Shown piece by piece: positions 3,001 to 19,530 of a DNA stretch of 24,071 nucleotides (the first letter of the stretch is position 1; every line of letters begins with the position of its first letter). The notes beneath the pieces are model-generated. The model was not told the origin of the DNA. It worked only from the letters and a program-made list of their open reading frames with translations, and made no database searches. The DNA is from a virus, in IMG/VR virus record IMGVR_UViG_3300009285_001596, positions 1 to 24,071 of that record; one strand, written 5' to 3'. A program made the position numbers and the translations under genes.

Positions 3001-6000
3001 CTGTCTGCCAAGAGGAATATCGCGCGGTTGCTGCCGCTCCTGTTATCGTGAATGAGTTTGAACCTGTAGCAGTCACTTCTCCACTCGCCGTTATCGCACT
3101 GGAGGTGAGAGTACCGCTCACAGTGACGTTCCCCGAGGCATCAATCGAAATCCCTTCATCTCCCCCGTCACCGCTCAAATAATTGGAGCCGAGAATGATA
3201 TTTGCGGCCGATCCTAAGAGGCTGAAATTTCCCGTTACTGTGAGCGTTCCCGTAACGGCGAGGGGTTTGTCAATCGAAACCGTTGTTCCGTCCCACTCGA
3301 GAACTGCCGCCCCGCCCGTGGTGCGGTTCAAAACGAGTTGTATATCCTCATCGTTACCGTCCAAGTTGATCGTTAACTGATCCGCCGTTGTGCCGGAAAC
3401 ATCCGAGCCCGTAACGACAACCCCATTGATCTCCATTTCCGAGCCGTCCCAGGAGAGATACTGCCCTGCGGGATTGCCGATGTGGAGCTTGTACGCGCCT
3501 ACATTCTTCCCAACCCAAAAGCCAACCCCCGTCATAAAGTCCGTCGCTGCGCCCAAGCCAATAGCCGGAGTTGCGGCGTTGATGAAGGCCGCCCCCGAGT
3601 CTGCTGTAAAGGCCGAAGCTGTTAAGGCCCATCCGCCAACCCATCCCGAGACCGCGTCAATCTGTCCTGCACCTGAGAGCGCCCATCCAGCACTTCCTGA
3701 AACGGTGATCGTATCGTCAACGAGCGTCCCGTTCCAGTTGTTGGACTTCATAATGTTCGTTTCGGCGGTTATACTTTCCGCTTCAACGGTGAACTGCGAA
3801 AGAACCTCGCCGTACTGAACGCGCAAGAGAATAGCATCCCGGTTCTGAACGATCATGGAAAGGTATTCACCCTCCGTTCGGTACACGCCGGAGCCCTGCA
3901 GTAAATCCTCTGTGATCGTGAAGGGGTCAACTGTGAGTGTGTTATCGGAGGAACCCTGATCTCCCGCAAGTGTGAGCGTTGTAATCATGGAGCCCGTAAG
4001 ATTAATCACAACAACCTCATCCCCCGTTTGAAGCAGCGCCTCTCCTATCGGCTCAATCGGAAGTGAGGTGATCCCTACTCCCGCCGCAACCTCCGTCCTT
4101 ACCACGGTAATCGCCTTTGAAAGCTGTGAGTCTCGCGTTGCGTTGGCGAGCTTCACAATTACCTGTCCAACGTCAGAGCCCACGGAAATAACCGAAGTCG
4201 AAGAAAAGACTTCATCCCCAACCGTGACTGAGCCCTCGTCTTCCCGTACCTCTTGCCACTCCCCAGACCATTCATTCAGTTTTGGATTGAAGGTAATATC
4301 GTTCGGAACGTGCCGGACGGAGCGCCAAATAATCGAATTATGAGAAGTGAGCTGTCCCCGGATCGTTGCTTTCAAGAGTTTGTTCGGGGTAAGAAGACTC
4401 TGAAGTATCGCAGTCACGGCAAGCTGATTCAGCGAGAATTCCTCAGATCTTCCGTAACGGGCCCATATCGAAGTGGGCGAGCCGTTGAAAATGATGTGCG
4501 AATAATGCTGCGAAGTTGGTCCGTCACCTTGAAGGACCGTGCCAACATCAAACATGGGGAGTGGCGTTTCTCCGTCTGTCTCTGCGGTAAAGGTGAGGGC
4601 TGTCTGCTCGTCTCCCCCTCCGGCATTTATCATCGTTCCGGTAATCGGACAATACTCAATACCGTCGTACGCATTCGGGAATTCCCACCGTGTTCCGTTG
4701 TGATCGAAAAAGTATGCCTGTTCAAGCTGTGTCGCGGTGAACGTGCAGATGTTTGTTCCCGTTGGAATGTCCGGTGAAAGAATCTCAAGAAGCGTCTCCA
4801 CGATCCCGATTTCTTCCTGATTCCAGTACTCCGTATCAGACCATGAACTCGAATCGGGCGTATCGCGAACAAGCCATTTCGTGCCGACTTGAAACTTCCA
4901 ATAGATTTTTGGAGAAGGAAGAAGCGCCGCCGGAACGCCTGCAGCTCGAAGCGCCCGAGCGGTAATCTTCAGCCTGACCTTGACACTCTCTCCAACGCCG
5001 ACGGAAATCGTCGCGCCGATGTTGCTGATAAACGCGAAATCTCCCGGACTGTCGTAGCTTGAATGTTCCCCGTTGATCCTGATTTTATTTCTAACCGGAA
5101 CGAGTTCAACCGAAACGCCCGGAATACCCTGATCGTCAAATGTCCAAGGGTCAAGCTCGAAGGTTGCAAGGTCCCCGTTCGGTATGAGGTTCGGTACTCC
5201 GAGCCGATGGTTAAAAGAAAGTTTCGCTGAACGGTACGCCTTAACAAGGTCCTTGTGTCCCCCGGCCCGAAGCCTTATCGTCGAGCCGTCAACCGTCTTC
5301 CGGTAATCGGGAGCGGATGGCTCAACGTACGCGCCCGCCGCATTATACCTCCTCATCCGTATTGTGTCTTCCGCGTATTCGGATCGCTGAACAATGAGCC
5401 AGCAGTTTTCGAGCAAGTCCTCAGCGTCGAATGTCTGTTCAATCCGTAGGCCCTTCTGACAGAGAAGCGAATCCAATACCTGATAACACGAAAGGGGTTC
5501 CCCTAAGACGGCGAGTTGTGCGGCTTGTTGCTGTTCCCGTTCCCATTGATGGGATCGTACAAATTGCGTTCCGGGTTTCAAGAGGCCGTGCGCGGCCCAG
5601 ACATCCTCGAAGTTGTAAAAATTCTTCTGCTCAATCTCCGCCTGCTCCAATGGATCGTTATCGTCCCCGGTGAGCATCCCCTCGGCATACCAGGCGTCCG
5701 CCGTTTTGATCTTGAGCCCGTACCCAATCTTGCCGAGGATATTTGCAATGACCGTTGTTTTCGGAACAACCCCCTCATACTGCGCCTCCGAAGCATCTAA
5801 GAAGGGGATCGTCTTCAGCATGTTCAAGCCGCAAGTTGCGTAAATCGGAAGGATGAATGGGAAATATTTGTCCGGCTCCGAATACTGATCGGTGAGAACG
5901 TACCCCCTCCAGTACTCCGCATCGTCTTTGTAGAGGCGAAGCTGGTACTCCATTTCTCCCGCGCCGTAGATTGCTTCGATAATATCCTGTACGACTTGAG

Positions 6001-6208
6001 ACTGTACGGCAACGTTCCAGGTGAGCTTCGAGGCCCTTATGGGCTGATAGGTATTCCGTTTGCCTTCCCAGTTCAGAAGGGCCGGGGTATCGTCGCAGAT
6101 CACCTCTGTTGAGGCTCCAACATACCCGTCCTGATAGAGTTTCACAACCCAGGTAAAGGTACCAGAGTCATCAAGAAATTCAGCGTGGAGTTTTTGCGCG
6201 AATGCCAC
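1..6208 (-). CDS. Giant tail protein (baseplate hub/fibre-like), partial at left edge
   Basis: The frame starting at the GTG at 6208-6206 stays open to the window edge, giving at least 2,069 residues with no stop; I read every codon of the frame. The start overlaps the tape measure stop by one base (TAGTG) and has GAGGAA about seven bases upstream. Residues 1 to about 350 look like a folded tail-attachment domain (for example LLNWEGK, YQPIRAS, LTWNVAVQS). From about residue 900 the sequence becomes low-complexity beta-rich fibre sequence (TVTGTLT, GAITASG), with an 88-residue duplicated unit and a tandem 34-residue array. The visible end carries LGIGTP and DVTLYRSAANTL, phrases typical of phage fibres that often end in an S74-type chaperone peptidase, which would lie outside this window. 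Position after the tape measure fits a tail-tip or receptor-binding protein. Hub function is inferred; a phage tail protein is near certain. Confidence 0.88.
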   Translation of the reverse strand, partial: MAFAQKLHAEFLDDSGTFTWVVKLYQDGYVGASTEVICDDTPALLNWEGKRNTYQPIRASKLTWNVAVQSQVVQDIIEAIYGAGEMEYQLRLYKDDAEYWRGYVLTDQYSEPDKYFPFILPIYATCGLNMLKTIPFLDASEAQYEGVVPKTTVIANILGKIGYGLKIKTADAWYAEGMLTGDDNDPLEQAEIEQKNFYNFEDVWAAHGLLKPGTQFVRSHQWEREQQQAAQLAVLGEPLSCYQVLDSLLCQKGLRIEQTFDAEDLLENCWLIVQRSEYAEDTIRMRRYNAAGAYVEPSAPDYRKTVDGSTIRLRAGGHKDLVKAYRSAKLSFNHRLGVPNLIPNGDLATFELDPWTFDDQGIPGVSVELVPVRNKIRINGEHSSYDSPGDFAFISNIGATISVGVGESVKVRLKITARALRAAGVPAALLPSPKIYWKFQVGTKWLVRDTPDSSSWSDTEYWNQEEIGIVETLLEILSPDIPTGTNICTFTATQLEQAYFFDHNGTRWEFPNAYDGIEYCPITGTMINAGGGDEQTALTFTAETDGETPLPMFDVGTVLQGDGPTSQHYSHIIFNGSPTSIWARYGRSEEFSLNQLAVTAILQSLLTPNKLLKATIRGQLTSHNSIIWRSVRHVPNDITFNPKLNEWSGEWQEVREDEGSVTVGDEVFSSTSVISVGSDVGQVIVKLANATRDSQLSKAITVVRTEVAAGVGITSLPIEPIGEALLQTGDEVVVINLTGSMITTLTLAGDQGSSDNTLTVDPFTITEDLLQGSGVYRTEGEYLSMIVQNRDAILLRVQYGEVLSQFTVEAESITAETNIMKSNNWNGTLVDDTITVSGSAGWALSGAGQIDAVSGWVGGWALTASAFTADSGAAFINAATPAIGLGAATDFMTGVGFWVGKNVGAYKLHIGNPAGQYLSWDGSEMEINGVVVTGSDVSGTTADQLTINLDGNDEDIQLVLNRTTGGAAVLEWDGTTVSIDKPLAVTGTLTVTGNFSLLGSAANIILGSNYLSGDGGDEGISIDASGNVTVSGTLTSSAITASGEVTATGSNSFTITGAAATARYSSWQTAGVNRWLIGADASAETGSNVGSDWVIRGRSDAGADLGTYLTITRSTGATSLSGTLSSGAITAAGVTTAPQFVSNYTADFGVAAYQLNYGNRIRFDSGANYWRMSQNSAGGFNIAKDGVADAVVIDALGSVAILEQLKFDTDANFWRISQTVAGGLNITKDAVIDALVFDALGAAAMGGSLTVAGEVTVTGSNSFTITGAAATARYSSWQTAGVNRWLIGADASAETGSNVGSDWVIRGRSDAGADLGSYLTITRSTGATSLSGTLSSGAITASGDITIEKANPALFFNADANNYTYQDFSNGATDGNFRVGAEGSTGAQLAVGSSPFAGIINRQGLYPLQFATNNTVYMTLSSTGSLTVAGDAAINGGDLTSTATTFNLFNATVTTLNFAGAGVAINIGASAGFSLLPNAGYSGNLGSLAKKYLTLHAAELWVETLVAQNTIATIGGRILGGPTTQLIADLTDIATTIDVKHNEMASGDRVYMEANAKVEFMSIDSAATPITGGYRYTVTRNLDGSGANAWNAGDAIFNTGTTGDGFIDIYSVAGVKAGTEYGPAIVGNIRNSATYNDWDAAWAIGNLNGVYGYIADTYGAAFGKYNASNNHITIDPTNGVRFFSGTATVLGQLTSTTWTLGNTTTEHISISSTAVQIKDGATVCANLTAGALSLGDTANEHTLINTSGVALKDGANVYALFAATTTIGLTASEHISISSTSVQIIDSASVYTDLTAGVLTLGLQAGGEYAVIDGTDGIRLYGGGSLKVQLTNAGVLTLGDTANEHVNLTATALQFKDGATVLTDVSGGNVTIGEVGASKANLYISAGTAYFRINTTAMLAMGAAVWDGLNGISMGNGVAFIQNTNIQHGHLAFVSLTSGTFTDGDAVLGEIMVATGVTNPNNVAGRFTATVQSGATVTSNYAVRALATAISGTTNYGIFATALAGTTNWAGYFDDGNVYIKNNLGIGTPTLSGKLNIMDHTTAAGGLYIGSDVTLYRSAANTLTTDDDF
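595..1111 (-). repeat. Tandem array of about 34-residue fibre modules inside the tail protein
   Basis: Five successive modules begin at about 1111, 1009, 910, 808 and 697, with a degenerate sixth at 595, so the spacing is 34, 33, 34, 37 and 34 codons. Each starts with a variant of LGDTANEH, followed by a short strand, then KDGATV or a variant, then LTAG and a return to LTLG. The fourth module is the most diverged (LGLQAGGEY, DGIRLYGGG). The regular period fits a trimeric beta-rich fibre shaft built by module duplication. The repeat was seen in translation; it is weaker at DNA level. Confidence 0.8.
2187..2450 (-). repeat. 264-bp near-identical direct repeat, copy 1
   Basis: This stretch matches 2817-3080 at an offset of exactly 630 bases (210 codons), so both copies are read in the same frame of the tail protein. 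By eye there are about 17 mismatches in 264 bases, and the first 66 bases (plus-strand order) are identical. The encoded unit of 88 residues includes NRWLIGAD, SDWVIRGRSD and GTYLTITRS, a module commonly seen in phage fibres. A short partial echo of its plus-strand left end recurs at about 3081-3110. Confidence 0.88.
2817..3080 (-). repeat. 264-bp near-identical direct repeat, copy 2
   Basis: Partner of the copy at 2187-2450, on the same strand and in the same frame. It is nearer the protein N-terminus (about residues 1044-1131, against about 1254-1341 for the other copy). Most differences between copies fall at silent positions, so protein-level constraint has probably been kept since duplication. 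Confidence 0.88.
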
Positions 6209-9810: not shown

Positions 9811-10167
9811 TTAACTCGCTTCCGCAGCCTTCTCTTCACACTGGAGATTGTAATACCATTCCTCCTCGTCAACCTTAATCACGCCGTGAATCACAAATAC
9901 CCGGCTTCCGTACAGTATCCGGTACCCATGAGCGAGTTCTTCCGAGCCCGAGCCAAGCTCGTTTTGCCAACGCAAAAGAACCTTGTGCGTGATGTGGCTC
10001 TGAAGTTGTTCGGCGCGCATCCGTTCGTACGCGGATAAAGGCGTGATCTTCGTCCATACGTCCTTGACATCCGAATACGTCCCTACCGTCCCGCCGTAAC
10101 CATCGGCTGTCGTGGACTGCTTCTGTAGTGTGACCCTATGTTTCAGATCGCCAACCCGTATTTTCAT
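9811..10167 (-). CDS. Head-tail adaptor/stopper protein
   Basis: The protein has 118 residues. It begins IRVGDLKHRVTLQKQS and continues with DGYGGTVGTY, WTKITPLSAYERMRAEQ and HKVLLRW, the recognisable head-tail joining family (SPP1 gp16-like, Phage_H_T_join). It closes the bottom of the connector after packaging. The start overlaps the connector stop as ATGA. Confidence 0.9.
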   Translation of the reverse strand: MKIRVGDLKHRVTLQKQSTTADGYGGTVGTYSDVKDVWTKITPLSAYERMRAEQLQSHITHKVLLRWQNELGSGSEELAHGYRILYGSRVFVIHGVIKVDEEEWYYNLQCEEKAAEAS

Positions 10168-10826
10168 AAAATCCTCAAAGAAGAAAGGAGCGACTTTGAA
10201 ACGGGAGTCAGCGCGCAGTCGATCTTTCCCTGCCCGTCAACGCCGATCTCGCCCCGATTTTGATAAAGGAACGTCACGGAATCAAGAATCGCATCCTTCA
10301 CCTTTTGCGGCAAGGGATTTGCCGGAGAGTCCTCCGAAACAGAAGCGGAATAGTCCGCCGGGTCGTAACCGACCAAGACTGTTGCGCGAATTGAAACGTC
10401 AATATATCCCGTCGTTGTGAAGGAGTTGCTTACCGAGGTTACTCTGAGTGTTTTGATCTCCTCGCCCCTCACGGTGTAGGTGTCAACGTCTTCCCATGTG
10501 TCGGAGCCCGCTTCGTACTGCTCAACGGATTCCACCAGGACATGAGGCGGAAGAGGCATAACGGCGTAATCGTTGAAGCGCTCCCATTCAATGCGGATCG
10601 TCTTTCTCAAGATCGCTCTTTGCGTGAAGTCCTCTGCTTTTGAGGTGACGGTCCGAATGAGCTGCTCGATTAGGGTATCGTCCCCGTCGTAATCAATCTT
10701 TGCGTGGGTCTTCGCCTCATCGACGGAAACGATCAACTCCGTCTCCTCTTCCAGGATGCGGACCTGTACGCCCTCGGCGGGACGGTCCGATCTCTTTTTC
10801 GATCTGTTCAGTGTGGGGTAGCTCAT
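10164..10826 (-). CDS. Head-tail connector protein (gp6-like)
   Basis: The protein has 220 residues from the ATG at 10826. An upstream in-frame extension to 11027 would cover the 65-residue gene and is rejected because 10826 forms an ATGA overlap with that gene's stop. The body has SVDEAKTHAKIDYDGDDTLIEQLIRTV, then AEDFTQRAIL, and later VKDAILDSVTFLYQNRGE. These are the classic helices of the gp6/gp15-like connector ring that binds beneath the portal. The first 25 residues are basic and Pro/Ser-rich. Confidence 0.88.
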   Translation of the reverse strand: MSYPTLNRSKKRSDRPAEGVQVRILEEETELIVSVDEAKTHAKIDYDGDDTLIEQLIRTVTSKAEDFTQRAILRKTIRIEWERFNDYAVMPLPPHVLVESVEQYEAGSDTWEDVDTYTVRGEEIKTLRVTSVSNSFTTTGYIDVSIRATVLVGYDPADYSASVSEDSPANPLPQKVKDAILDSVTFLYQNRGEIGVDGQGKIDCALTPVSKSLLSSLRIL

Positions 10827-11020
10827 TTTCTTTTCTCCGGGCCTGTGACCTTTCTTTTGCGGCTTCGAGTGGCAATCTCTTCCTTCGTTGCAAGGCGGGC
10901 CTTGGGATAGGGTCCCTGGGTCAACGCGCGTACCTCCGCTTTGAGGACCCAGAACAACCTTCCTTTCGGCATGATCCTGTGATCTCGCAGGAGTTTTTTG
11001 AGTGTGATGAGAGCCTTCAT
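10823..11020 (-). CDS. Small basic protein, function unknown
   Basis: The protein has 65 residues and is very rich in Lys and Arg (KKLLRDHR, TRSRKRKVTGPEKRK at the end). Both ends are coupled: its ATG overlaps the GT29 gene stop as ATGA, and its stop overlaps the connector start as ATGA. That arrangement is strong evidence that it is translated. I recognise no domain. It is the last gene before the head-tail genes resume, so it could belong to either the glycan block or the structural module. Confidence 0.72.
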   Translation of the reverse strand: MKALITLKKLLRDHRIMPKGRLFWVLKAEVRALTQGPYPKARLATKEEIATRSRKRKVTGPEKRK

Positions 11021-11928
11021 AATGCAACCGCCTTTCGTTTTTTTACCAGAAACTTCGCCCTTTCGGGCGTTGCGAAAAATACTTCCTTCCGGTGAACGAA
11101 TCCAGCCGAAGTAAGCATAGGCGTAAGCGCCTGCATCTTTACCGTTTCATCCGTCTTCGCCTCTTGCAAGAGTCTGTTCTCTGTCCAATGTTTCAGCATA
11201 AGAACGTGCGGCGGAGTGTTCACCCTTTTCAATCGCACCAGGGGCCGAGGCGGGGCATGCCTCTCGTGTCTCTTCGGCTTGTTCGTTTGTGCCTCTTGGA
11301 GAATCTTTTCCATGAGTTCATCCACCGTCACCCTATCGTCACCGTCTATGAGTCTTTTGACGAATGCCTTGTGTGAGGGTTGATCGTGTCCGCCTGCGGA
11401 AATGTTCCCCGGAAAGGCGTGAGAGCCCGACTTGTTCCCGCCGTACCCTTCATAATACCCGTACTCGTAAAAGTGCATCCCGAGAACGTGAAGAGTTTTT
11501 AAGGGAAGACCGAGCAGGTGTGTCAACGCAATGGCCCCCGCGTTGGGGGATTTCCGTACCTGCCGCCGAACGTTCGCCCTCACAAGGGCCGGAACCGCTT
11601 CGAAGGAGATGCGCCCCTTATTGATCTTCTCAAAAGATTGAACCTTCGGGGTCTCCCTCGGGTACACACTGACGATATGGCCCACCTTTCCAATTGCCTC
11701 CTCGAATGACTTGCTGTTGTGGGCAATGTCCACTTGGAGCAAGTGGTAGAGAATATCCGTTCGCTTTCCCAAGTCAATAACTTGCGCCTCGGATATGTTC
11801 CATTCCCGGTTGATCCTTACCACTACATCGTAAGAATCAATCTTCTCTCCCAACCCCGCGCCTTCGAGCGCCCGCGAGGGACAGACGAGAACAACCGACT
11901 TGTCTTTCACTATTTCGGCGGCGGTCAT
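11017..11928 (-). CDS. GT29 sialyltransferase-like glycosyltransferase
   Basis: The protein has 303 residues. Residues 12-40 carry a sialyl-motif-L-like segment: VVLVCPS, a Gly-rich turn, then KIDSYDVVVRIN. Residues 128-154 resemble motif S: PNAGAIALTHLLGLPLK, then HVLGMHFY. Residues 181-187 (HDQPSHK) fit the position of the late catalytic His motif. Family members transfer sialic acid from CMP-sialic acid to a glycan. About 90 C-terminal residues beyond the motifs (from PKRHERHAPPRP) form a basic extra region of unknown role. There is no signal peptide or membrane segment, so it should act in the cytoplasm. It lies in the same block as NeuB and NeuA, which would make its donor. The acceptor is unknown. 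Fold assignment is by motif recognition. Confidence 0.82.
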   Translation of the reverse strand: MTAAEIVKDKSVVLVCPSRALEGAGLGEKIDSYDVVVRINREWNISEAQVIDLGKRTDILYHLLQVDIAHNSKSFEEAIGKVGHIVSVYPRETPKVQSFEKINKGRISFEAVPALVRANVRRQVRKSPNAGAIALTHLLGLPLKTLHVLGMHFYEYGYYEGYGGNKSGSHAFPGNISAGGHDQPSHKAFVKRLIDGDDRVTVDELMEKILQEAQTNKPKRHERHAPPRPLVRLKRVNTPPHVLMLKHWTENRLLQEAKTDETVKMQALTPMLTSAGFVHRKEVFFATPERAKFLVKKRKAVAL

Positions 11929-12173
11929 GCTTTGTCACTTTCTCTGAATGGCCCCGACTTAAAAACAGCGTTGCATTGTATCCCCGCCTCTTGAACACGA
12001 CGACACAAACAGGAAGGACACAGTAAGCCACCCTCGTCATGTGTTGGACTGACCTTCTTCCAAACATCATCCGGTATAATCAGATCGGGAAATCCAAACT
12101 CATCACCGTACTTCCGGCCACAGTCTATGCAACAGCCCTGCATTCTTCTGTTTTCGGCAAATCTTTTACACAT
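11925..12173 (-). CDS. Small zinc-ribbon phage protein, function unknown
   Basis: The protein has 82 residues. C15-x2-C18 (CIDCG) and C52-x2-C55 (CPSC) form a probable four-Cys zinc site. Between them lies DLIIPDDVWKKVSPTHDEGGLL, a pattern I know from many small uncharacterised phage proteins. Its ATG overlaps the GT8-like gene by eight bases, and its stop overlaps the GT29 start as ATGA. No enzymatic role is claimed; it may be a binding or regulatory protein. Confidence 0.8.
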   Translation of the reverse strand: MCKRFAENRRMQGCCIDCGRKYGDEFGFPDLIIPDDVWKKVSPTHDEGGLLCPSCLCRRVQEAGIQCNAVFKSGPFRESDKA

Positions 12174-12903
12174 GAACCCTCGTGTAGAAACTCCACCATA
12201 ATTCCGTTAAGGGCTGATAGAGGGGAGCATCATTCAGCCAGGGCTTGCCCGCGCAAAAGTGAATCATCTTCGGAACGCGGCTCAAGAACATTCTGGGATT
12301 GTATTCCCAACATTGGTCAATCATTTGAAACTCTACATCGAGCAGGTGAACGCTCTCCGGGTCTGTCTCATACAAATAGTGAGCGAGAATCTGCTGATCG
12401 CCCATTCGTGTATCCTTCATCGCGAGCGCATATGCCTGGACCCGATCATACGTTTCTTTCGAGGGCTTCAGGATCATCAGGCCGCCCGAAAACGGGGGCC
12501 GCCCGAACACCGGCTCCGAGAGCCCTCTACCCACAATGCCGACCGAAGTAAAAGGCTTGCACTTCAAAAGCCCTGAAATGTCCTTTAGGACAATCACGTC
12601 CGAATCGAGAAAGCACACATCCTCGCCCTTCGTGTCCAAGAGAAAGACGGTCAACTTCTGCATGGCCCGGGCGAATCGTTCATGTTTCAACTGTGATGTG
12701 TCAAGAGTGAACGTGCCGAGGCTCCTTCTATGGACGATCTGTGCGCCCTGGTTCTCAAGCCTCCGAATACTCTTTCCAGTCAGATCATCCTCAATCATCA
12801 CGGTCCAGCTCGCGTTCTTTATGCCAGAGTTCTCCTTGAAACTCTGTAAGAGCGCTAGTGTCCCGGGTACGTAGTTTTCCGTTGTGAGGGTTACGAAGTT
12901 CAT
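12166..12903 (-). CDS. GT8-like glycosyltransferase
   Basis: The protein has 245 residues from the ATG at 12903, which overlaps the methyltransferase stop as ATGA. It shows the GT-A features of glycogenin/LPS GT8-type enzymes: N-terminal FVTLTTENYVPG, a DxD metal and nucleotide-sugar motif at residues 100-102 (FLDSDVIVLKDI), the acceptor-side FSGGLMILKPS at 138-148, GDQQILAHYL at 168-177, and a late His segment IHFCAGKPW at 214-222. It probably transfers a hexose from a UDP-sugar. In this operon it could build the acceptor that the GT29 enzyme then sialylates, which is an inference. Confidence 0.83.
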   Translation of the reverse strand: MNFVTLTTENYVPGTLALLQSFKENSGIKNASWTVMIEDDLTGKSIRRLENQGAQIVHRRSLGTFTLDTSQLKHERFARAMQKLTVFLLDTKGEDVCFLDSDVIVLKDISGLLKCKPFTSVGIVGRGLSEPVFGRPPFSGGLMILKPSKETYDRVQAYALAMKDTRMGDQQILAHYLYETDPESVHLLDVEFQMIDQCWEYNPRMFLSRVPKMIHFCAGKPWLNDAPLYQPLTELWWSFYTRVHV

Positions 12904-13478
12904 TTGAAGAAATACCATGTTTTGAAAATGTGTTCCTCTGTTGTCACGGCGAGGATTTTGCCTTCCTGTTTTGCGAACGCATCAACCGCGTCCTTTACGC
13001 CGAACTTGATCCCTTTACGATCCCCGGAGAAATAGTCGTGACCCGAGAAGAGACCGCCCCTTCGGAGTTTCGGATACCAGGCCAGAAGGTCCTTCTCTAC
13101 CGCTTCCTTCGAGTGATCTGCGTCAAGGTAAATAAAATCGAGGCTCTCGTCGGCGAATGTTGCCGCCGCCTCAAGGCTTGTGGCCCGGAGAATGCGAACG
13201 TTGGCAAACCGGGATACCCTCTCTTTACACTCTGCGAGGATCTTCTCCCACTCCTCTTTCGATTCCTTCTTTGTGTCGATCCAGAGCTTATCCGTCCGGC
13301 GGAGAAAATCATTGTATCCGGGAAGAGAGGCCCACGCATCAACGAGAAAGAGTTCCTTTCCCTTCCACGAGTTCAGGATGATCTCTGAGAAGACTCCGGC
13401 GAAGACTCCCACCTCAACCCCAAGCCCCAAGAGGTTATGGTCATTCAAAAGCTGGCCGATCTCGTTCCGTGTTTTCAA
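12900..13478 (-). CDS. Class I SAM-dependent methyltransferase (Methyltransf_24-like)
   Basis: The protein has 192 residues. The start is a TTG that overlaps the HAD gene stop as TTGA and has AAGGAG eight bases upstream. The Rossmann motifs are clear: VEVGVFAGVFSE at 21-32 (SAM-binding loop), LVDAW at 45-49 (acidic residue for SAM ribose), LDFIYLDADHSKEAVEKDL near the middle, and GGLFSGHDY after it. This family is common in glycan and antibiotic clusters and often methylates sugars. The substrate is not evident; a sugar or the nonulosonic acid itself is plausible from context. Confidence 0.82.
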   Translation of the reverse strand: MKTRNEIGQLLNDHNLLGLGVEVGVFAGVFSEIILNSWKGKELFLVDAWASLPGYNDFLRRTDKLWIDTKKESKEEWEKILAECKERVSRFANVRILRATSLEAAATFADESLDFIYLDADHSKEAVEKDLLAWYPKLRRGGLFSGHDYFSGDRKGIKFGVKDAVDAFAKQEGKILAVTTEEHIFKTWYFFK

Positions 13479-13837
13479 TTCTGTGCTCCTTGTTCGAGCT
13501 TGTTCATTGCAAGGTCTTTGAGTTGTTGAAACGTGACCGCCCTATCGTCAACGTAATAGTCCGCCGCAGGTTTGTTGAAAACGATATGCGAGCCTTCCAC
13601 ACCCGCCTCTTTGAGCTGCGCTTGTGTTAAGAGCATGAGTTCCGGCGTGACGTTTTGAGAACCCCGGGCCGTGTAGATCACTATTTCATGGCCGAGATTG
13701 AACAGGACCTTCACAAAGGCAATCGGGGAAAGTTTCATCCCAGGGATCGGCTCAAGGTTCGGTTTTGCATCCCGGTATCCGTTTTGCGGGGTCCCGCCTT
13801 TGAAAAGAGTTCCGTCGATGTCTACAGCGATTCGCAT
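13475..13837 (-). CDS. HAD-family phosphatase, candidate sugar-phosphate phosphatase
   Basis: The protein has 120 residues from the ATG at 13837, which has GGAG five bases upstream and overlaps NeuA by 16 bases. HAD motif I is DIDGT at 6-10 (D6 nucleophile, D8 acid/base), motif II is T56 in IYTARG, motif III is K89 in NKPAADYY, and motif IV is D97-D98. It is a minimal capless HAD like those in capsule and sugar-nucleotide clusters. A phosphatase is exactly the step missing between NanE, whose product is ManNAc-6-P, and free sialic acid. It could act on ManNAc-6-P or on a sialic acid 9-phosphate. Enzyme class is confident; substrate is inferred. Confidence 0.82.
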   Translation of the reverse strand: MRIAVDIDGTLFKGGTPQNGYRDAKPNLEPIPGMKLSPIAFVKVLFNLGHEIVIYTARGSQNVTPELMLLTQAQLKEAGVEGSHIVFNKPAADYYVDDRAVTFQQLKDLAMNKLEQGAQN

Positions 13838-14517
13838 AATCTCCAATCGTCTTCCGTGTCGAGTTCAAAAAAGTGTTTCATCGGCATCTCGTAACAGGCA
13901 ACAAAACCATTTATGATTCTTCCCGACATCAGGAAATCCCGCCGGCGGAAAATGTAGAGAGCCCCGTTTTCCACGAAGAGCCCTCTGACACCGGCCAAGC
14001 CGGGGCGATAATACTCCTCTTCCGTTGCGCCCGCGACCGAGCCGTCGAGCATCTGGCGGTAGAAGTATCTCTTCAGTCTCACACCGGAAAAAACCGAGTA
14101 AGGCGCATTCGAGAACCCCTCCCTCGTCAGGCTCTCCATGATCTTCTCTGGGAGAGATTCAAAGAGACTGATCGCTTCATCAATATCTTTGCCCGTTGTA
14201 AAGGGCGAGGTTGCCTGAAGCATCACCACGGCATCGGGTGAATTTGCGGCGAAGTATTCCTTCAAATGAATGAGGGGGGCGTTTGGCTCTACGGTTGACT
14301 CAATGCTCCGGTTGAACACTTCAACGCCCTTAATGTTTTCGATATACTTCTTGATCTCCGCATCTTCCGTTGAGAGGATAACCCTCTCTACTTTCTTACT
14401 CTCAAGTGCCGCTTCGAGTACGAAGTCAATCAGGGGCCGCCCCTTGAAGAGCTTCATCATCTTCCGGGGAATCCTCTTCGATGCGCCCCGGGCCGGTATC
14501 AAGGCAACGTAGTTCAT
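13822..14517 (-). CDS. neuA: CMP-sialic acid synthetase (N-acylneuraminate cytidylyltransferase)
   Basis: The protein has 231 residues from the ATG at 14517, which overlaps the preceding 59-codon gene as ATGA. The CTP-binding signature is at the N-terminus: IPARGASKRIPRK at 7-19, followed by GRPLIDFVLEAAL. Further family motifs are LSTEDAEI at 48-55, LQATSPF at 100-106, ENGALYIFRRRDFL, and ELDTEDDWRLCESL at the C-terminus, where the acidic pair binds metal. It activates a nonulosonic acid with CTP to give the donor for a sialyltransferase. The length is normal for the catalytic domain alone. Exact sugar (Neu5Ac, Kdn, legionaminic or other) cannot be read from the sequence. Confidence 0.9.
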   Translation of the reverse strand: MNYVALIPARGASKRIPRKMMKLFKGRPLIDFVLEAALESKKVERVILSTEDAEIKKYIENIKGVEVFNRSIESTVEPNAPLIHLKEYFAANSPDAVVMLQATSPFTTGKDIDEAISLFESLPEKIMESLTREGFSNAPYSVFSGVRLKRYFYRQMLDGSVAGATEEEYYRPGLAGVRGLFVENGALYIFRRRDFLMSGRIINGFVACYEMPMKHFFELDTEDDWRLCESL

Positions 14518-14693
14518 ATCAGTCTTTTTTGTTGATCCCACCAGAAGCCAACAGTAATGCTTGAGGGGGCTTCCCGCTTCTGCGCTCCAGGGAGTTCAAC
14601 TTGTTTGTGAACTCTCTTTTTCTTTTTCGGCTCTTTGAATTTGAGCTGTCCTTGCGCCTTCAAGAACTCGTGGAGGTTGTCGATCCTGTTCAT
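14514..14693 (-). CDS. 59-residue basic protein between neuB and neuA
   Basis: ATG at 14693 overlaps the NeuB stop as ATGA, and its TGA overlaps the NeuA start as ATGA, so it fills the gap exactly. The product has an N-terminal helix (RIDNLHEFLKAQGQLKF), a Lys-rich centre (EPKKKKRVHK) and an aromatic C-terminal segment (TVGFWWDQQKRLI). I recognise no family. Its slot is where an accessory subunit or remnant C-terminal domain of NeuB might be expected, but it shows no similarity to the SAF domain that I can see. Confidence 0.72.
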   Translation of the reverse strand: MNRIDNLHEFLKAQGQLKFKEPKKKKRVHKQVELPGAQKREAPSSITVGFWWDQQKRLI

Positions 14694-15538
14694 GGTTTGT
14701 GCTTCGCCCTCGTTTCTTTTTCGCAGGGGAGTATTTCCGGATTCTTCTCCCGTATGGCGCTCGCAACGTCCTCAAGGTATTTCCTGATCTGCTTCATTCC
14801 TTCCGGCTCGCAGGAGGCCGCCTGATCTGTGCCCTTCATCGTCCGGTCAAGTGTCAAGTGCCTTTCGATATGTGTCGCGCCCAAAACTTGCGCCGCAACG
14901 TCGATCCCCGTTGACTGCGTATGATCGGAGAAGGCAACGCCCTTGATGAATGTCCCGTACCTCATGCGGAGCCTCGTAATCTCTCCGAGGCAGGCATCCT
15001 CTACCCTCGCGGGGTACGCGGACGTACAGGCGTACAAGGTCAAGTCGTGATTCCTTTTCAGTTCGGTAAAGAGTTTCACAATCCCGTCGATCTCTTCCCT
15101 TGTTGTCATGCCGCAGGAAATGTGAATCTCCCCTTCCCACTTGTGGCAGAGATACCGCAGGAGCGCCTCGTCGTTATTGTTCCCGCTTCCGACTTTGATA
15201 TAGGCGGGATCGAGCGATATGATCTCATCGGCGGAGTCCACGTCGAACACACTGCAGGCGTACCGTACCCTGTTCAAGAGACATTCCTGTTTCAAAAGCC
15301 TGTGCTGCTCAAGAGAAAACTCAAGGGCTTTCCTGTGTTCATAGTACGTCGCGCCGAAGGCATGAGCCGGGTTTGGATGAGGAGCACTCCGGTCAATGAT
15401 GTTTTCCGGGTTCCGTTTCTGAAACTTCACCACATCCACGCCGCAGTATGATCCCGCAATGCGTACCATCCTCACGGTGGTATCGAAATCGCCCTGATGG
15501 TTGCAGCTTATTTCTGCGACAAGTTTTGATCTGTTCAT
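14690..15538 (-). CDS. neuB: Sialic acid synthase, NeuB-like, lacking the SAF domain
   Basis: The protein has 282 residues from the ATG at 15538; an upstream in-frame extension to 15628 would overlap the capsid gene and is rejected. TIM-barrel motifs of NeuB are present in order: AEISCNHQGD at 8-17, VVKFQKRNPENII from 36, IKVGSGNNNDEALL, ISCGMTTREEID, LYACTSAYPARVEDA, FSDHTQSTGIDVAA, and ERHLTLDRTMKGTDQAASCEP. The enzyme condenses ManNAc (or its phosphate) with phosphoenolpyruvate. Typical bacterial NeuB is about 340-350 residues with a C-terminal antifreeze-like SAF domain; here the protein stops just after the barrel. It lies 58 bases after the capsid gene. Confidence 0.87.
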   Translation of the reverse strand: MNRSKLVAEISCNHQGDFDTTVRMVRIAGSYCGVDVVKFQKRNPENIIDRSAPHPNPAHAFGATYYEHRKALEFSLEQHRLLKQECLLNRVRYACSVFDVDSADEIISLDPAYIKVGSGNNNDEALLRYLCHKWEGEIHISCGMTTREEIDGIVKLFTELKRNHDLTLYACTSAYPARVEDACLGEITRLRMRYGTFIKGVAFSDHTQSTGIDVAAQVLGATHIERHLTLDRTMKGTDQAASCEPEGMKQIRKYLEDVASAIREKNPEILPCEKETRAKHKP

Positions 15539-15546
15539 TTTAGAAC

Positions 15547-15574
15547 CCGGGGCCGTCTTTAGGACAAGCCCCGG
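15547..15574 (-). promoter_or_regulatory. GC-rich hairpin between capsid gene and neuB
   Basis: CCGGGGC at one end pairs with GCCCCGG at the other around a 14-base loop. A second, mutually exclusive pairing (GCCCC/GGGGC) uses the bases next to it at 15570-15584. There is no U-tract on the minus strand (it reads GTTCTAAAATG), so it is not a standard terminator. It may shield the 3' end of capsid mRNA or lower read-through into the glycan genes. Confidence 0.5.
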
Positions 15575-15596
15575 ATCGTTGGGGCGAGTGAAACTA

Positions 15597-16862
15597 CTAC
15601 GAGCCGGAAGCCAGTGAGCTGTACACAAAGGCGTTCGGGCGGAAATTGACGAGCATAATGCGCTCTTCAGCCCTGATGGTCTTCATGTTCTGAGCAAACT
15701 GGGCGTTCACCCATCCGACTTGAATGTTCGCTTGCTGCCGATCATACAGCGTGGCTCCTAAGCCGAATGCGCCGCAGAGGAAATCCCCCGCCGTCAGGCT
15801 TTCAGATTCCACAACCGGCAATCCCCACATGCGCGGAATCGCGCGGGTCTGGGGGTTGGCGAACAGGTACGCGTTCGTTGTGTCTTGTTTCAGAAGCTCA
15901 ATCGCTTCCCAATCTTCCGGGTTCAGCACAAATCCCGTTGCCGGAAAATGAGCAAGCTGAACCTGTGTGATCGCCCTTCGCAGGGTGTCCACGTTGGTAT
16001 CGCCCGCCACGCGCCGGTTGTATTCGGCTGCGATGGTGGTAATACCTTCCAGGTGTGCGCCTGTGCCGTCACCGTAGAGGATCTCATCCTCTTCCTCGAT
16101 CTTCACGGCGTAGAGCAGACGGCCATTGACGTACCCGATCAAAACGGGCGCATCGTCGGCAATCTGTTCCGTGATCGGAAGGGTCGTTGCAATCACGGTC
16201 GCAACCGCAGTCTGAAGCGAGAACTGAATCCGGCTTTCCGGCTTTGTTCCCTCTTCGGCAACCACCGTCGCATTACCGCGATTGTCGTTTCCGCTTGAGC
16301 CATCGTCGAACACATCCTCACGGACGTACTCGAGGGAACTGGTACTGATCGGCGTGACGTTCAGAAGATCCCGAATGTGAAGCTCCTGCTCCGGGACGGG
16401 CTGAATGATACCGGGAACGCGGAAAGGAACAATGGCCGCTCCGCCCGAGGCATCGTCAGTTGTGAGCGTGTCCTTGAAGAACGACTTCATTTCAACACGT
16501 GCCGTTCCGCCGGCGAGCTTCCGGTTCTTGTACGCATCGGCCTCAACAACGAGATAGCCGATGGACTTCACCTTGTTTCCGCCGAAGCCGAAGGTCTGAA
16601 TCTTCGTCTCGAATTGATCGAGGCGGCCATTCAAATCCTTCTGAATCTTCTCTGACAGGGTTTTGGCCTCGTCGGTCTTCGCGCCCATGTCCTTGACCTG
16701 TTTCTCGAGGGTCTGTTTGATGTCGGCCGTTCCCTCAAATTTCTTTACCGCCTCGTCGAGTGCTTTCTTCGAGGTTTCCATCTCCGCAGCAATCTTGACT
16801 TGCTGGTCCGTGATGGTTTTCAGTTCCGCCTTGACTTCAGGGGATAATGTGATTTCAGGCAT
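15597..16862 (-). CDS. Major capsid protein, HK97 fold
   Basis: The protein has 421 residues. The first 95 or so are charged coiled coil (KALDEAVKKFEGTADIKQTLEKQVKD), the delta/scaffolding domain normally removed by the prohead protease. The mature part carries family features: GGAAIVPFRVPGIIQP, EEGTKPES, LPITEQIADDAPVL, IEEEDEILYGDGTG, ITQVQLAHFPATGFVLNPEDWEAIELLK, and GLPVVES near the C-terminus. It assembles the icosahedral shell. It follows the protease gene by 13 bases and has a TAAGGAG site nine bases upstream of ATG. Confidence 0.94.
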   Translation of the reverse strand: MPEITLSPEVKAELKTITDQQVKIAAEMETSKKALDEAVKKFEGTADIKQTLEKQVKDMGAKTDEAKTLSEKIQKDLNGRLDQFETKIQTFGFGGNKVKSIGYLVVEADAYKNRKLAGGTARVEMKSFFKDTLTTDDASGGAAIVPFRVPGIIQPVPEQELHIRDLLNVTPISTSSLEYVREDVFDDGSSGNDNRGNATVVAEEGTKPESRIQFSLQTAVATVIATTLPITEQIADDAPVLIGYVNGRLLYAVKIEEEDEILYGDGTGAHLEGITTIAAEYNRRVAGDTNVDTLRRAITQVQLAHFPATGFVLNPEDWEAIELLKQDTTNAYLFANPQTRAIPRMWGLPVVESESLTAGDFLCGAFGLGATLYDRQQANIQVGWVNAQFAQNMKTIRAEERIMLVNFRPNAFVYSSLASGS

Positions 16863-16878: not shown

Positions 16879-17583
16879 CTGTTTCAAATGGTTTTTGAGC
16901 GCCTCAACGAATACCTTGTTGGCCGCCTCTTGTTCCCCTTTGGCCGGGGATTGTAAGGAGTCCTGATAGTCCATGATCGCTTGTTTCAGTTGTTTGATCC
17001 TCAACTCAATATCGAAAGCCGTCTCGTCCCGCAGTTCGTTCCTCAACACGCGGTGGAGGTTGTCGATCTGCTCAACGGCCCTTTGAATGTCTTCTTTTGA
17101 TTTCATGCCGAGGAATGGTGTTTCCTCGTTTGCGCCCCATGTGACCGCCGAAAATTCCCAGAGCTTGAGTTCAAGGAGAACGTTCGGCTTGTCCTGTTCG
17201 CGCTGAACCTTGATGATGTCGTATCCGATGGAGTGTTCATTGATCGCTCCACCCTCATACAATACGAGCGCATCCCGGCCCCATGAGGTTTCGAGAACCT
17301 TCGTCTCGAAGTAGAGTCCTTTTGAATCTTCTTTGAGAACCTGCGGCTTGCCGAGGATATGATCCCGATAATGCTGATACAGCATGGCAACACGGTTCTT
17401 CCCCTCCGGACCTTGTTCTTCAATCGTCCGCTTGAATGCGCCGGGGCGGATGATGTCGTTGTCGGAATCGACGTTGTTGAATGCGGCCGCGTAGCCGGTA
17501 ATGATTCCCTGCTTCTTGTCAACATCTTTCAAGGCAACCTTCAGAGGAAGGCCCTTGTAGTGGATGGATTGGTTTTCTTTCAT
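16876..17583 (-). CDS. Prohead maturation protease, HK97 family (U35)
   Basis: The protein has 235 residues from the ATG at 17583, which overlaps the HNH-like gene stop as ATGA; a GTG four codons upstream is possible. The family core is visible: GIITGYAAAFNNVDSDNDIIRPGAF at 26-50, catalytic His candidate H71 in LYQHYRDHILGKP, and catalytic Ser candidate S118 in NEHSIGYD, followed by KLWEFSAVTWGANEETP. It cleaves the delta domain of the capsid protein and itself during maturation. The C-terminal 70 residues are helical and charged. It sits directly before the capsid gene as usual. Confidence 0.93.
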   Translation of the reverse strand: MKENQSIHYKGLPLKVALKDVDKKQGIITGYAAAFNNVDSDNDIIRPGAFKRTIEEQGPEGKNRVAMLYQHYRDHILGKPQVLKEDSKGLYFETKVLETSWGRDALVLYEGGAINEHSIGYDIIKVQREQDKPNVLLELKLWEFSAVTWGANEETPFLGMKSKEDIQRAVEQIDNLHRVLRNELRDETAFDIELRIKQLKQAIMDYQDSLQSPAKGEQEAANKVFVEALKNHLKQ

Positions 17584-18059
17584 TTCAGTGTCCACTTTCT
17601 TCTATTTCGCATTTGTTCGGAATGCGTCGCCCATCTACAATTCCTCGGCTCATAGTTGCCATCGTTGTTGATCCGCTCGATTGACATTCCCACGGGGCGA
17701 GATCCCATATCCGCTAGGAAATTCACGAAACTATGAAGCCATCTCTCGCAGACCGTGATACCTCGACCGCCGTAGTTTGTGAAACACTTTATATTGGGAT
17801 TGTAACACCGCGATTTCATACTTGACCAGGTTCTATATTCTCGCGAAGCATTCGACACCCCGCTCTTTGTGTGCCCTTTTGTGTGCCCGTGTTTTAAATG
17901 GGCAGGGTGTTCTCTTTGGATACATCCACAGCTTTTGCTCGTTCCATCCTTCAGTTTATCTTGTCGGACATTTCCCTCGGTTCCACAAGAACAGCGGCAA
18001 GGCCAATACCGCCAAACTGTTGTACCACGTCTGACTTTTTCGCTTTCGCCGACAACCAA
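17580..18059 (-). CDS. HNH-like putative homing endonuclease
   Basis: At least 159 residues. The N-terminal part has a treble-Cys segment (CRCSCG, then SCGC). The C-terminal part has the phage motif series EYRTWSSMKSRCYNPN, NYGGRGITVCERW, GMSIERINNDGNYEPRNCRW and EQMRNRRKW, a type usually annotated as HNH or AP2-like selfish endonuclease. The only usual start is the TTG at 18059, but the family's conserved N-terminal phrase continues upstream in frame (GQQCGRW at about 18079-18060). The frame is open to a TGA near 18120 with no ATG, GTG or other TTG. The true start is therefore unresolved, or the N-terminus has decayed. It stands between NanE and the protease, a place where free-standing endonucleases often enter phage operons. 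Confidence 0.72.
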   Translation of the reverse strand: MVVGESEKVRRGTTVWRYWPCRCSCGTEGNVRQDKLKDGTSKSCGCIQREHPAHLKHGHTKGHTKSGVSNASREYRTWSSMKSRCYNPNIKCFTNYGGRGITVCERWLHSFVNFLADMGSRPVGMSIERINNDGNYEPRNCRWATHSEQMRNRRKWTLK

Positions 18060-18085: not shown

Positions 18086-18754
18086 TTATCGCTGGTTGAT
18101 GATAGAACGTACAAACCTCCTCGTTATTTCAATCGGCCTTGTGATTGCGCTTCCTACACATACCGCGTGAGCGCCCAACTCAAATGCCCTACCCGCCTCT
18201 TCCGGCGTCCCGATCCTGCCCTCGGCGATGACTTTGCCCGGGTACAGTTTTGAAAGGGCGGCAATCAGGTCGAAGTCCGGGCCGTGAATCAATTTCTCTA
18301 CCGTCTCTTTCGTGTACCCCGAGAGCGCCGTTGTGACGTAATCGGCCCCGGCATTTATGGCATCGATCCCCTCGGCGAGCATGGACACATCAGCGACAAC
18401 CGTTGCATGTTCCTTTTTCGCAAGATGAACCATTTCAATTCCCGTCAATCCGTCGGGGCGTTTCCTGTGCGTTGCATCCAAAGCCACGGGCCCGGCAACC
18501 TTGATCGCTTTTACGTCTTCAATCGAGCTGGTAATCAGAACCTCTCCACCGGGATATTCCCTTTTCGTCAGGCCGATGATCGGGATACTCACTAAGCCAT
18601 TCACAAACCGGATATTCGCCAAACCACACACTCTTACTGCTATCGCGCCTCCTCGTTCGGCGGCAATGGCAAAAGCCGTAATCATGGGGGGCGTATCGAA
18701 TGGGCTCCCCGGTTCAGACTGACATGAAACTATGAGGCCGGATTGAATTTTCAT
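18086..18754 (-). CDS. nanE: N-acylglucosamine-6-phosphate 2-epimerase (ManNAc-6-P epimerase)
   Basis: The protein has 222 residues from the ATG at 18754, which overlaps the MuF-like gene stop as ATGA; a start ten codons upstream is less likely. It is a clear NanE TIM barrel: GLIVSCQSEPGSPFDTP near the N-terminus, GGAIAVRVCGLANI, IPIIGLTKREYPG with the expected Lys, VALDATHRKRPDG, ALSGYTKETVE, VIAEGRIGTPEEA with the expected Glu, and AVCVGSAITRP. It interconverts GlcNAc-6-P and ManNAc-6-P. In bacteria it usually serves sialic acid breakdown, but beside NeuB, NeuA and a sialyltransferase it can supply ManNAc-6-P for synthesis. Being wedged between head genes is very unusual. Confidence 0.93.
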   Translation of the reverse strand: MKIQSGLIVSCQSEPGSPFDTPPMITAFAIAAERGGAIAVRVCGLANIRFVNGLVSIPIIGLTKREYPGGEVLITSSIEDVKAIKVAGPVALDATHRKRPDGLTGIEMVHLAKKEHATVVADVSMLAEGIDAINAGADYVTTALSGYTKETVEKLIHGPDFDLIAALSKLYPGKVIAEGRIGTPEEAGRAFELGAHAVCVGSAITRPIEITRRFVRSIINQR

Positions 18755-19530
18755 TTGGGTACAAATCCTTGAGTGCAACGACAAGAAATTATCTGTTCTG
18801 CGCTTCCGTTCGGATCACCGGGAAACTCAAGCGCCTCTCCGCCGATATTGAACTCTGCGTGAAGATCAACCCTCTGGCCGTCGGCTATCAGGTGATCGTC
18901 CCTCACCCTTTCGTCACGCGTGGCAATCCATTCTTTCCAAAGTTCAAGCCCAGTACTCTCAGCGCCCATGATACTCCCGAAATTTGAGGCCCCGATTGTT
19001 TCCGTTCTCGCAATAACGAGGCTCCTTGCGCGTGTAATCTCTTCCGAATCGTTCCTGATCGCTCTTGCGATTTCTGCTATGCCCTTTCCTTGAGATATAT
19101 ATTCCTCAATCACTGAGGCGATTCTCTTTTTCGTTGTCTCTGTGATCTGGACAACCTTCCCCGCCCCGTTCTCTTCCATGTAATCGCGTACTCGCTTATA
19201 CCAGGCATCCCTTTGCTGCCGATTCGCCTTCATGGACTTTTGCACAGCGTCAAACGCATTTGCGGCGAAGGGGATTGAGACGAGCAAATAAGACGAGAGG
19301 AGCATCGCCTCAATCATGTTCTTCCTTCTGTCGATCTCCCTGCCTGCGGCAAGGGCCGCCTCCTCTGGTGTCTGAACCTTAAGGATCTCATCGGCGGCTC
19401 TGCGTTGCTGAGACTTTAACGTTCGGGAAACGATCTTTTGAACCGCCGGAACGTACCGGAGTCTCTTGCCGTTAAAGGCTTTCCAAAATGCCGGACGGTC
19501 TGCTTCAGATATGTTGTAAGGGTAGATCAT
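18751..19530 (-). CDS. Phage Mu gpF-like minor head protein
   Basis: The protein has 259 residues. The N-terminal two thirds are helical (SRTLKSQQRRAADEILKVQ, KANRQQRDAWYKRVRDYM). The C-terminal third carries the MuF signature: ARTETIGASNFG, then WKEWIATRDERVRDDH, ADGQRVDLHAEF, PGDPNGSAEQIISCRC. Members are minor capsid proteins associated with the portal and sometimes ejected with DNA. It follows the portal gene by 19 bases. No toxin-like C-terminal fusion is present. Confidence 0.91.
   Translation of the reverse strand: MIYPYNISEADRPAFWKAFNGKRLRYVPAVQKIVSRTLKSQQRRAADEILKVQTPEEAALAAGREIDRRKNMIEAMLLSSYLLVSIPFAANAFDAVQKSMKANRQQRDAWYKRVRDYMEENGAGKVVQITETTKKRIASVIEEYISQGKGIAEIARAIRNDSEEITRARSLVIARTETIGASNFGSIMGAESTGLELWKEWIATRDERVRDDHLIADGQRVDLHAEFNIGGEALEFPGDPNGSAEQIISCRCTQGFVPK

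Follow-up and report, generated by a model that had tools for sequence, protein, structure and literature searches.

A GT29-type transferase and a putative CMP-nonulosonate pathway encoded among the head genes of a phage

We found that a phage carries, embedded in its head genes, a run of genes that would make a CMP-activated nonulosonate, together with a soluble GT29-type transferase that would use it. Animal cells and some bacteria bear a coat of sialic acids, and the sialyltransferases of animals belong to family GT29. The window, that is, the whole stretch of DNA that we analysed (24,071 bases), is a whole IMG/VR virus record. Its transferase gene almost certainly encodes a GT29-type enzyme, the donor is very probably a CMP-nonulosonate rather than another CMP-sugar acid, and the chance that the acceptor lies on the virion is about even. 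We give a probability of about 0.5 to the reading as a whole, in which a phage CMP-nonulosonate pathway and a soluble GT29-type transferase are expressed with the head genes and act on a virion protein or glycan. In all probability the phage adds a sialic-acid-type sugar to its own particle or to its host.

The transferase is a protein of 303 aa encoded at 11017..11928. A preliminary description of the sequence had the coordinates right; the plus-strand reading is interrupted by several stops, and the coding strand is the minus strand. Residues 1-212 form a core with motifs L and S and an invariant His181, and residues 213-303 form a basic extension. The L-type motif at residues 11-62 (VVLVCPSRALEGAGLGEKIDSYDVVVRIN...DLGKRTDILYHLL), the S-type motif at about residues 128-153 (PNAGAIALTHLL...LHVLGMHFY) and the late His segment at residues 180-186 (GHDQPSH), all of which had been described earlier, were located. 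The protein matched Pfam PF00777 (GT29) with an E value of 1.2e-4 and 22.1 bits, against a curated cut-off of 23, and its orthologue in the sister phage L002 scored 24.7 bits, over the cut-off. Relatives were collected from scans of viral and genome contigs; they were mostly viral and roughly 23-35% identical, and 37 of the 38 matched PF00777 at E ≤ 0.01. D34, R38, G54, T57, G150 and H181 were invariant in the alignment of 38 sequences.

A single-sequence search of the PDB with the transferase alone gave no match, and the family profile was needed. The 38-sequence profile matched ST3Gal1 (E 2e-11), which aligned over both motifs, as well as ST6Gal1 and ST8SiaIII. The same profile matched the GT42 enzyme CstII (E 5e-9) over nearly its full length, and the His181 column fell on CstII His188, which is the catalytic base of that enzyme. 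The AlphaFold model was confident in the core and of low confidence in the tail. When this model was searched with Foldseek, the best 29 PDB matches were all GT29 (best E 7e-7) and CstII came next, so that the structure prediction returned the GT29 fold proposed earlier and no other. Viral Foldseek matches annotated as GT29 or sialyltransferase came from uncultured Caudovirales, giant viruses, herpesviruses and poxviruses. Pfam PF06002 (GT42) did not match the transferase and matched one of the 38 relatives (E 0.003); PF01973 (Maf_flag10) matched neither the transferase at E ≤ 0.1 nor the relatives at E ≤ 0.01. No transmembrane stretch was found in the transferase, the best 19-residue hydropathy mean being only 1.31, in agreement with the earlier claim that it lacks a membrane anchor. 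The Glu of motif VS (H-x4-E in animals) is absent; the sequence here is H-DQPS-H, and the phage relatives mostly have Gln. By profile and predicted fold the transferase is a divergent GT29-type enzyme, and it is filed as such, and not as a canonical GT29, because the motif VS Glu is lost.

The preliminary description noted the transferase but not the NanE-NeuB-NeuA donor pathway that surrounds it. The cassette genes lie on one strand, the minus strand, in the order NanE, NeuB, NeuA, HAD phosphatase, methyltransferase, GT8 and GT29. NanE, a ManNAc-6-phosphate 2-epimerase (18086..18754, 222 aa), scored 231 bits against an NCBIfam cut-off of 189 and matched PDB NanE with E 7e-43. The NeuB-type nonulosonate synthase (14690..15538, 282 aa) matched Pfam NeuB (E 2.5e-58) and NeuB/PseI entries of the PDB, the best of which was a pseudaminic acid synthase. 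The NeuA-type CMP-nonulosonate cytidylyltransferase (13822..14517, 231 aa) matched Pfam CTP_transf_3 (E 7.2e-24); its best PDB match was mouse CMP-Neu5Ac synthetase (E 6e-19), and it also scored as PseF-like (E 4e-24), under that model's cut-off. A NeuB-type synthase and a NeuA-type cytidylyltransferase are thus both present, as in a bacterial nonulosonate synthesis operon. The remaining genes encode a HAD-type phosphatase, a candidate sugar-phosphate phosphatase with a weak EcbF-BcbF match and the motifs DIDGT and VDDR (13475..13837, 120 aa; PHROG 1238, E 2.7e-17), a class I methyltransferase (Methyltransf_24; 12900..13478, 192 aa; Pfam E 5.8e-16) and a GT8-family glycosyltransferase with a DSD motif (12166..12918, 250 aa; PF01501, E 2.5e-11). 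Catalytic motifs are retained in the cassette. Two small ORFs on the same strand are absent in the sister phage: a basic one of 59 aa (14514..14693), which overlaps NeuB and NeuA, two genes that overlap directly in the sister phage, and a Cys-rich one of 82 aa without a Pfam match (11925..12173), which overlaps GT8 and GT29.

The surroundings of the cassette are those of a phage head operon. All genes lie on the minus strand, and the upstream order is DNA methyltransferase, terminase, portal, head morphogenesis, NanE, HNH-like ORF, prohead protease and major capsid protein; NeuB, the 59-aa ORF, NeuA, HAD phosphatase, methyltransferase, GT8, the Cys-rich ORF and GT29 follow, and after these a small ORF, the head-tail adaptor, head closure and tail genes. 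The start of NanE overlaps the stop of its upstream neighbour, the head-morphogenesis gene (18751..19530; PHROG 2468, E 1.6e-53). Overlaps of a few bases join the genes of the NeuB-GT29 run, which occupies the interval from the HK97-type major capsid protein, upstream of NeuB (15597..16862; NCBIfam TIGR01554, E 1e-44; PHROG 10), to the head-tail adaptor, the downstream neighbour of the cassette (10164..10826; PHROG 442, E 2.4e-14). In Escherichia phage LMessi, which has a related capsid protein, the head-tail adaptor Ad1 comes directly after the capsid gene, and in two further phages with a related capsid protein an unnamed gene follows it immediately; the NeuB-GT29 run therefore fills a slot that is empty in these phages. 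The terminase is nearest to those of Bacteroides and Parabacteroides phages, and no host is claimed here because the identity is only about 36%.

The sister phage L002, another IMG/VR record (17.1 kb), has the same cassette order, and its cassette proteins are 80-87% identical to those of the window. Between the two phages the cassette genes had a dN/dS of 0.08-0.22 and the transferase core one of 0.056, values comparable with those of the neighbouring capsid (0.15) and adaptor (0.08) genes. None of the cassette genes is broken, and all evolve under purifying selection. An assembly chimera or host contamination was ruled out by the phage genes on both sides of the cassette and by the same arrangement in L002, and the phage origin of the transferase gene, as first described, was upheld. 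Two other differences and likenesses were seen in this comparison. The HNH-like ORF between NanE and the protease (17580-18059) looks like a recent insertion, since it is missing in the sister phage. The gap between the capsid gene and NeuB (15539-15596; 4461-4523 in L002) holds a GC-rich hairpin with a conserved stem and a diverged loop (z -2.3 in the window, -1.7 in L002), which possibly lowers cassette expression relative to the capsid.

From the sequence we infer each reaction, the exact sugar, the timing, the acceptor and the role of the C-terminus. The usual role of NanE is catabolic; here it would run in the opposite direction and convert GlcNAc-6-phosphate to ManNAc-6-phosphate. NeuB would condense this product with PEP to a sialic or related nonulosonic acid, and the HAD phosphatase would act before or after NeuB, an order that cannot be read from the sequence. 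NeuA would then turn the nonulosonic acid into a CMP-sugar, and the GT29-type enzyme would transfer the sugar in the cytoplasm with His181 as the catalytic base. Starting and capping the glycan would fall to GT8 and the methyltransferase. The cassette lies within the head genes and is coupled to them, so it is probably made late, and the likeliest acceptor would be a virion protein or a glycan attached to one. The earlier suggestion of a phage structural protein as acceptor gains circumstantial support from the position of the gene within the head block and from its overlaps with adjacent genes; no sequence feature points to the acceptor.

The NeuB of the window matched PF03102 alone, and the SAF domain at the C-terminus is absent (282 aa); the protein retains the motifs that align with the catalytic Glu and His. 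An arginine of SAF is essential in Caulobacter NeuB (PMC7591256). Judged by length, nine more viral NeuBs of about 276-290 aa apparently lack SAF (L002, L008, L012, L027, L034, L039, L041, L046 and L051), and the proteins of L004 (370 aa) and of the bacterial contig L015 (345 aa) have room for it. PDB entry 6ncs is a NeuB of 290 residues, so short forms exist outside phages. The missing SAF domain, the missing motif VS Glu and the usual catabolic role of NanE count against our preferred reading, as does the possible single lineage of the head-block transferases described below.

The pairing of the transferase with donor genes recurred in other contigs. NeuA and/or NeuB lay near the transferase, often as the adjacent gene, in 21 of 29 non-redundant viral contigs (window NeuB and NeuA as queries; flanks of 8-10 kb where the contig allowed; redundancy judged manually). 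Against 50,697 deposited phage records the transferase gave no match, and only three of these records had a NeuB match. In four of the eight other contigs different sugar-acid genes accompany the transferase: type I-beta DAHP synthase with KdsB (L021 and L023), DAHP synthase (L025), and PseB/PseC-like and KdsB-like genes (L024). A different query found NeuA in L042, and no sugar-acid donor gene was found near the transferase in L005, L047 and L050. The preliminary description had also overlooked these different partners of the transferase in related phages, which mean that the sugar may be any of several. KdsA as the identity of the L021 synthase was dropped, the type I-beta DAHP synthase model scoring above its cut-off. 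The head-block DAHP synthase (type I-beta) lies beside the transferase at L021:1048-5103, in L023 and at L025:6321-7037, with a MurB-like gene in L021, and this set is possibly a variant of the cassette for a heptulosonate or for KDO. The bacterial contig L015 (Oleispira) has GT29, NeuB, a NeuC-like ORF (our reading of the sequence) and NeuA in a row. A scan of viral contigs for NanE detected it in the sister phage only, but an 84-kb viral contig has a remote set of NeuA, NeuB and NanE in consecutive order (L012:9346-11466), a second viral NanE-NeuB pairing. Further arrangements of GT29-type genes were also observed. Tandem copies occur at L024:7962-10127, L025:7037-9269 and L016:9068-10750, some of them fused to a methyltransferase (L024 and L016) or a glycosyltransferase-like domain (L025). 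A 155-kb virus (L050:924-10643) has two GT29-type genes, relatives of GT8 and Methyltransf_24, and at 5869-6168 a small Cys-rich ORF that resembles the one at 11925-12173 of the window. LR756508.1 (L056), an unannotated 484-kb uncultured phage, has three GT29-like stretches around NeuB.

Among the contigs examined for head genes, the transferase was seen in head-gene neighbourhoods in five phage types. Besides the window, the genes lie between the minor head protein and the capsid gene (L021-L023), between portal/minor head and scaffold/capsid (L024), after portal and minor head (L025) and after the capsid gene (L005). The head-block transferases cluster on the tree and a single clade was not rejected (AU p 0.24), so the location need not reflect five independent arrivals; they may be one lineage that spread through different phages. 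We tentatively suggest, as one option that we do not favour strongly, that phages share a head-gene slot in which interchangeable sialic-, heptulosonate/KDO- or pseudaminic-type donor genes accompany a GT29-type transferase and give virions a phage-made sugar-acid coat, here from GlcNAc-6-phosphate via a biosynthetic NanE.

The extra basic C-terminus that had been described earlier is present. The extension (residues 213-303; 11020..11292, minus strand) has a net charge of +13 and a pI of 11.3, with 20 Lys/Arg in 91 residues, whereas residues 1-212 have +1 and 7.9. It is missing in every relative of the 38-sequence alignment but the sister phage, where it is 60% identical and shares the conserved block MLTSAGFVHR.E.FFA.P.RA.FL. 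This C-terminus may help to hold the acceptor. Its many basic residues, its restriction to two phages and its conserved block would suit an extension with no part in the enzyme's action, either a nucleic-acid- or capsid-binding tag that does no more than position the transferase or a small head protein that became fused to it by chance. We think this explanation rather unlikely: Pfam, PHROGs, tblastn of deposited phages and the viral-contig scan yielded no separate protein related to the extension, the next small ORF shows no similarity, and the extension modelled alone gave no confident fold (pLDDT 61, pTM 0.22).

The same enzymes and donor could also serve a host surface glycan (lipooligosaccharide, capsule or exopolysaccharide), a late change of which would block superinfection or the sticking of progeny to debris. 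Most characterised bacterial GT29/GT42-type enzymes act on surface glycans, GT8 enzymes often construct the LPS outer core, and related contigs such as L008 and L050 carry long glycan-synthesis runs. The cassette of the window, however, lies within the head operon and overlaps head genes, and no flippase, polymerase or acyltransferase was seen there, so we infer a ranking with the virion first and the host surface, as the clearly less probable acceptor, second. It is doubtful, too, that the donor is a CMP-activated sugar acid other than Neu5Ac (KDO, KDN, legionaminic or pseudaminic acid, or a heptulosonate). NanE indicates ManNAc-6-phosphate, the mouse CMP-Neu5Ac synthetase is the best PDB match of NeuA, and the window shows no PseB/PseC or DAHP synthase gene; yet the closest relatives beyond the sister phage adjoin DAHP synthase/KdsB (L021, L023 and L025) or PseB/PseC-like genes (L024), NeuA is also PseF-like below the cut-off, NeuB is closest in the PDB to a pseudaminic acid synthase, and CbMaf takes both Neu5Ac and KDO. 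That the cassette is a metabolic passenger or an inactive relic from a bacterium, with no virion or surface role, is very improbable: the missing SAF domain and the different small intergenic ORFs of the sister phage would fit such decay, but the purifying selection on intact genes, the retained catalytic motifs and the order conserved in L002 argue against it.

Bacterial GT29 (PMC5811610) and viral GT29 annotations are already known. The phage transferase shares motifs L and S, a late catalytic-type His and the fold with GT29, including the bacterial set of Petit et al. 2018 (PMC5811610), for which neither an anchor nor a motif disulphide is reported, and in this the phage enzyme is alike. 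It differs in its identity of about 15% to solved members, in the motif VS Glu (His here, Gln in many phage relatives), in its extra basic C-terminus and in its place with donor genes in a head operon; phages and viruses are both unmentioned in that paper. The GT42 enzymes CstII/CstI of Campylobacter resemble it in the nearly full-length profile match, the His181/His188 column and a similar fold, but PF06002 does not match and GT29 scores better by both sequence and fold. A work-alike is the Maf family of flagellin nonulosonate transferases (PF01973), soluble enzymes with a CstII-like central domain that attach Neu5Ac or KDO to Ser/Thr of flagellin, a self-assembling protein (PMC11339370); the phage protein has no PF01973 match and lacks the N- and C-terminal Maf domains. 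Mycobacteriophage capsids are reported with covalent glycans, and phage glycosyltransferases of Che8 and Rita are linked to glycans of the major capsid protein (cited in PMC11256854). The reports, as that paper cites them, mention no sialic-acid pathway or GT29, and their glycosylation genes lie near the genome 3' end, not amid head genes. Annotated viral GT29s or sialyltransferases with the same fold (A0A6J5NLG3 of an uncultured Caudovirales, ChoanoV1, herpesviruses and poxviruses) are annotated singly, with no linked donor pathway or phage function found in the searchable literature, and a putative sialyltransferase is named in one paper on an Azotobacter phage (PMC12772287). Our search of open-licence papers turned up no phage that combines donor synthesis with GT29-type transfer among its head genes.

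The transferases, soluble and divergent, match GT29 as well as GT42 and are useful for asking how the two families relate. With the cassette, the glycosylation of phage particles, which has received little study, becomes open to direct test. If a phage carries among its head genes most of the route to an activated nonulosonate and a transferase of its own, its particles or the infected cells could receive a sugar coat independent of the surface chemistry of the host.
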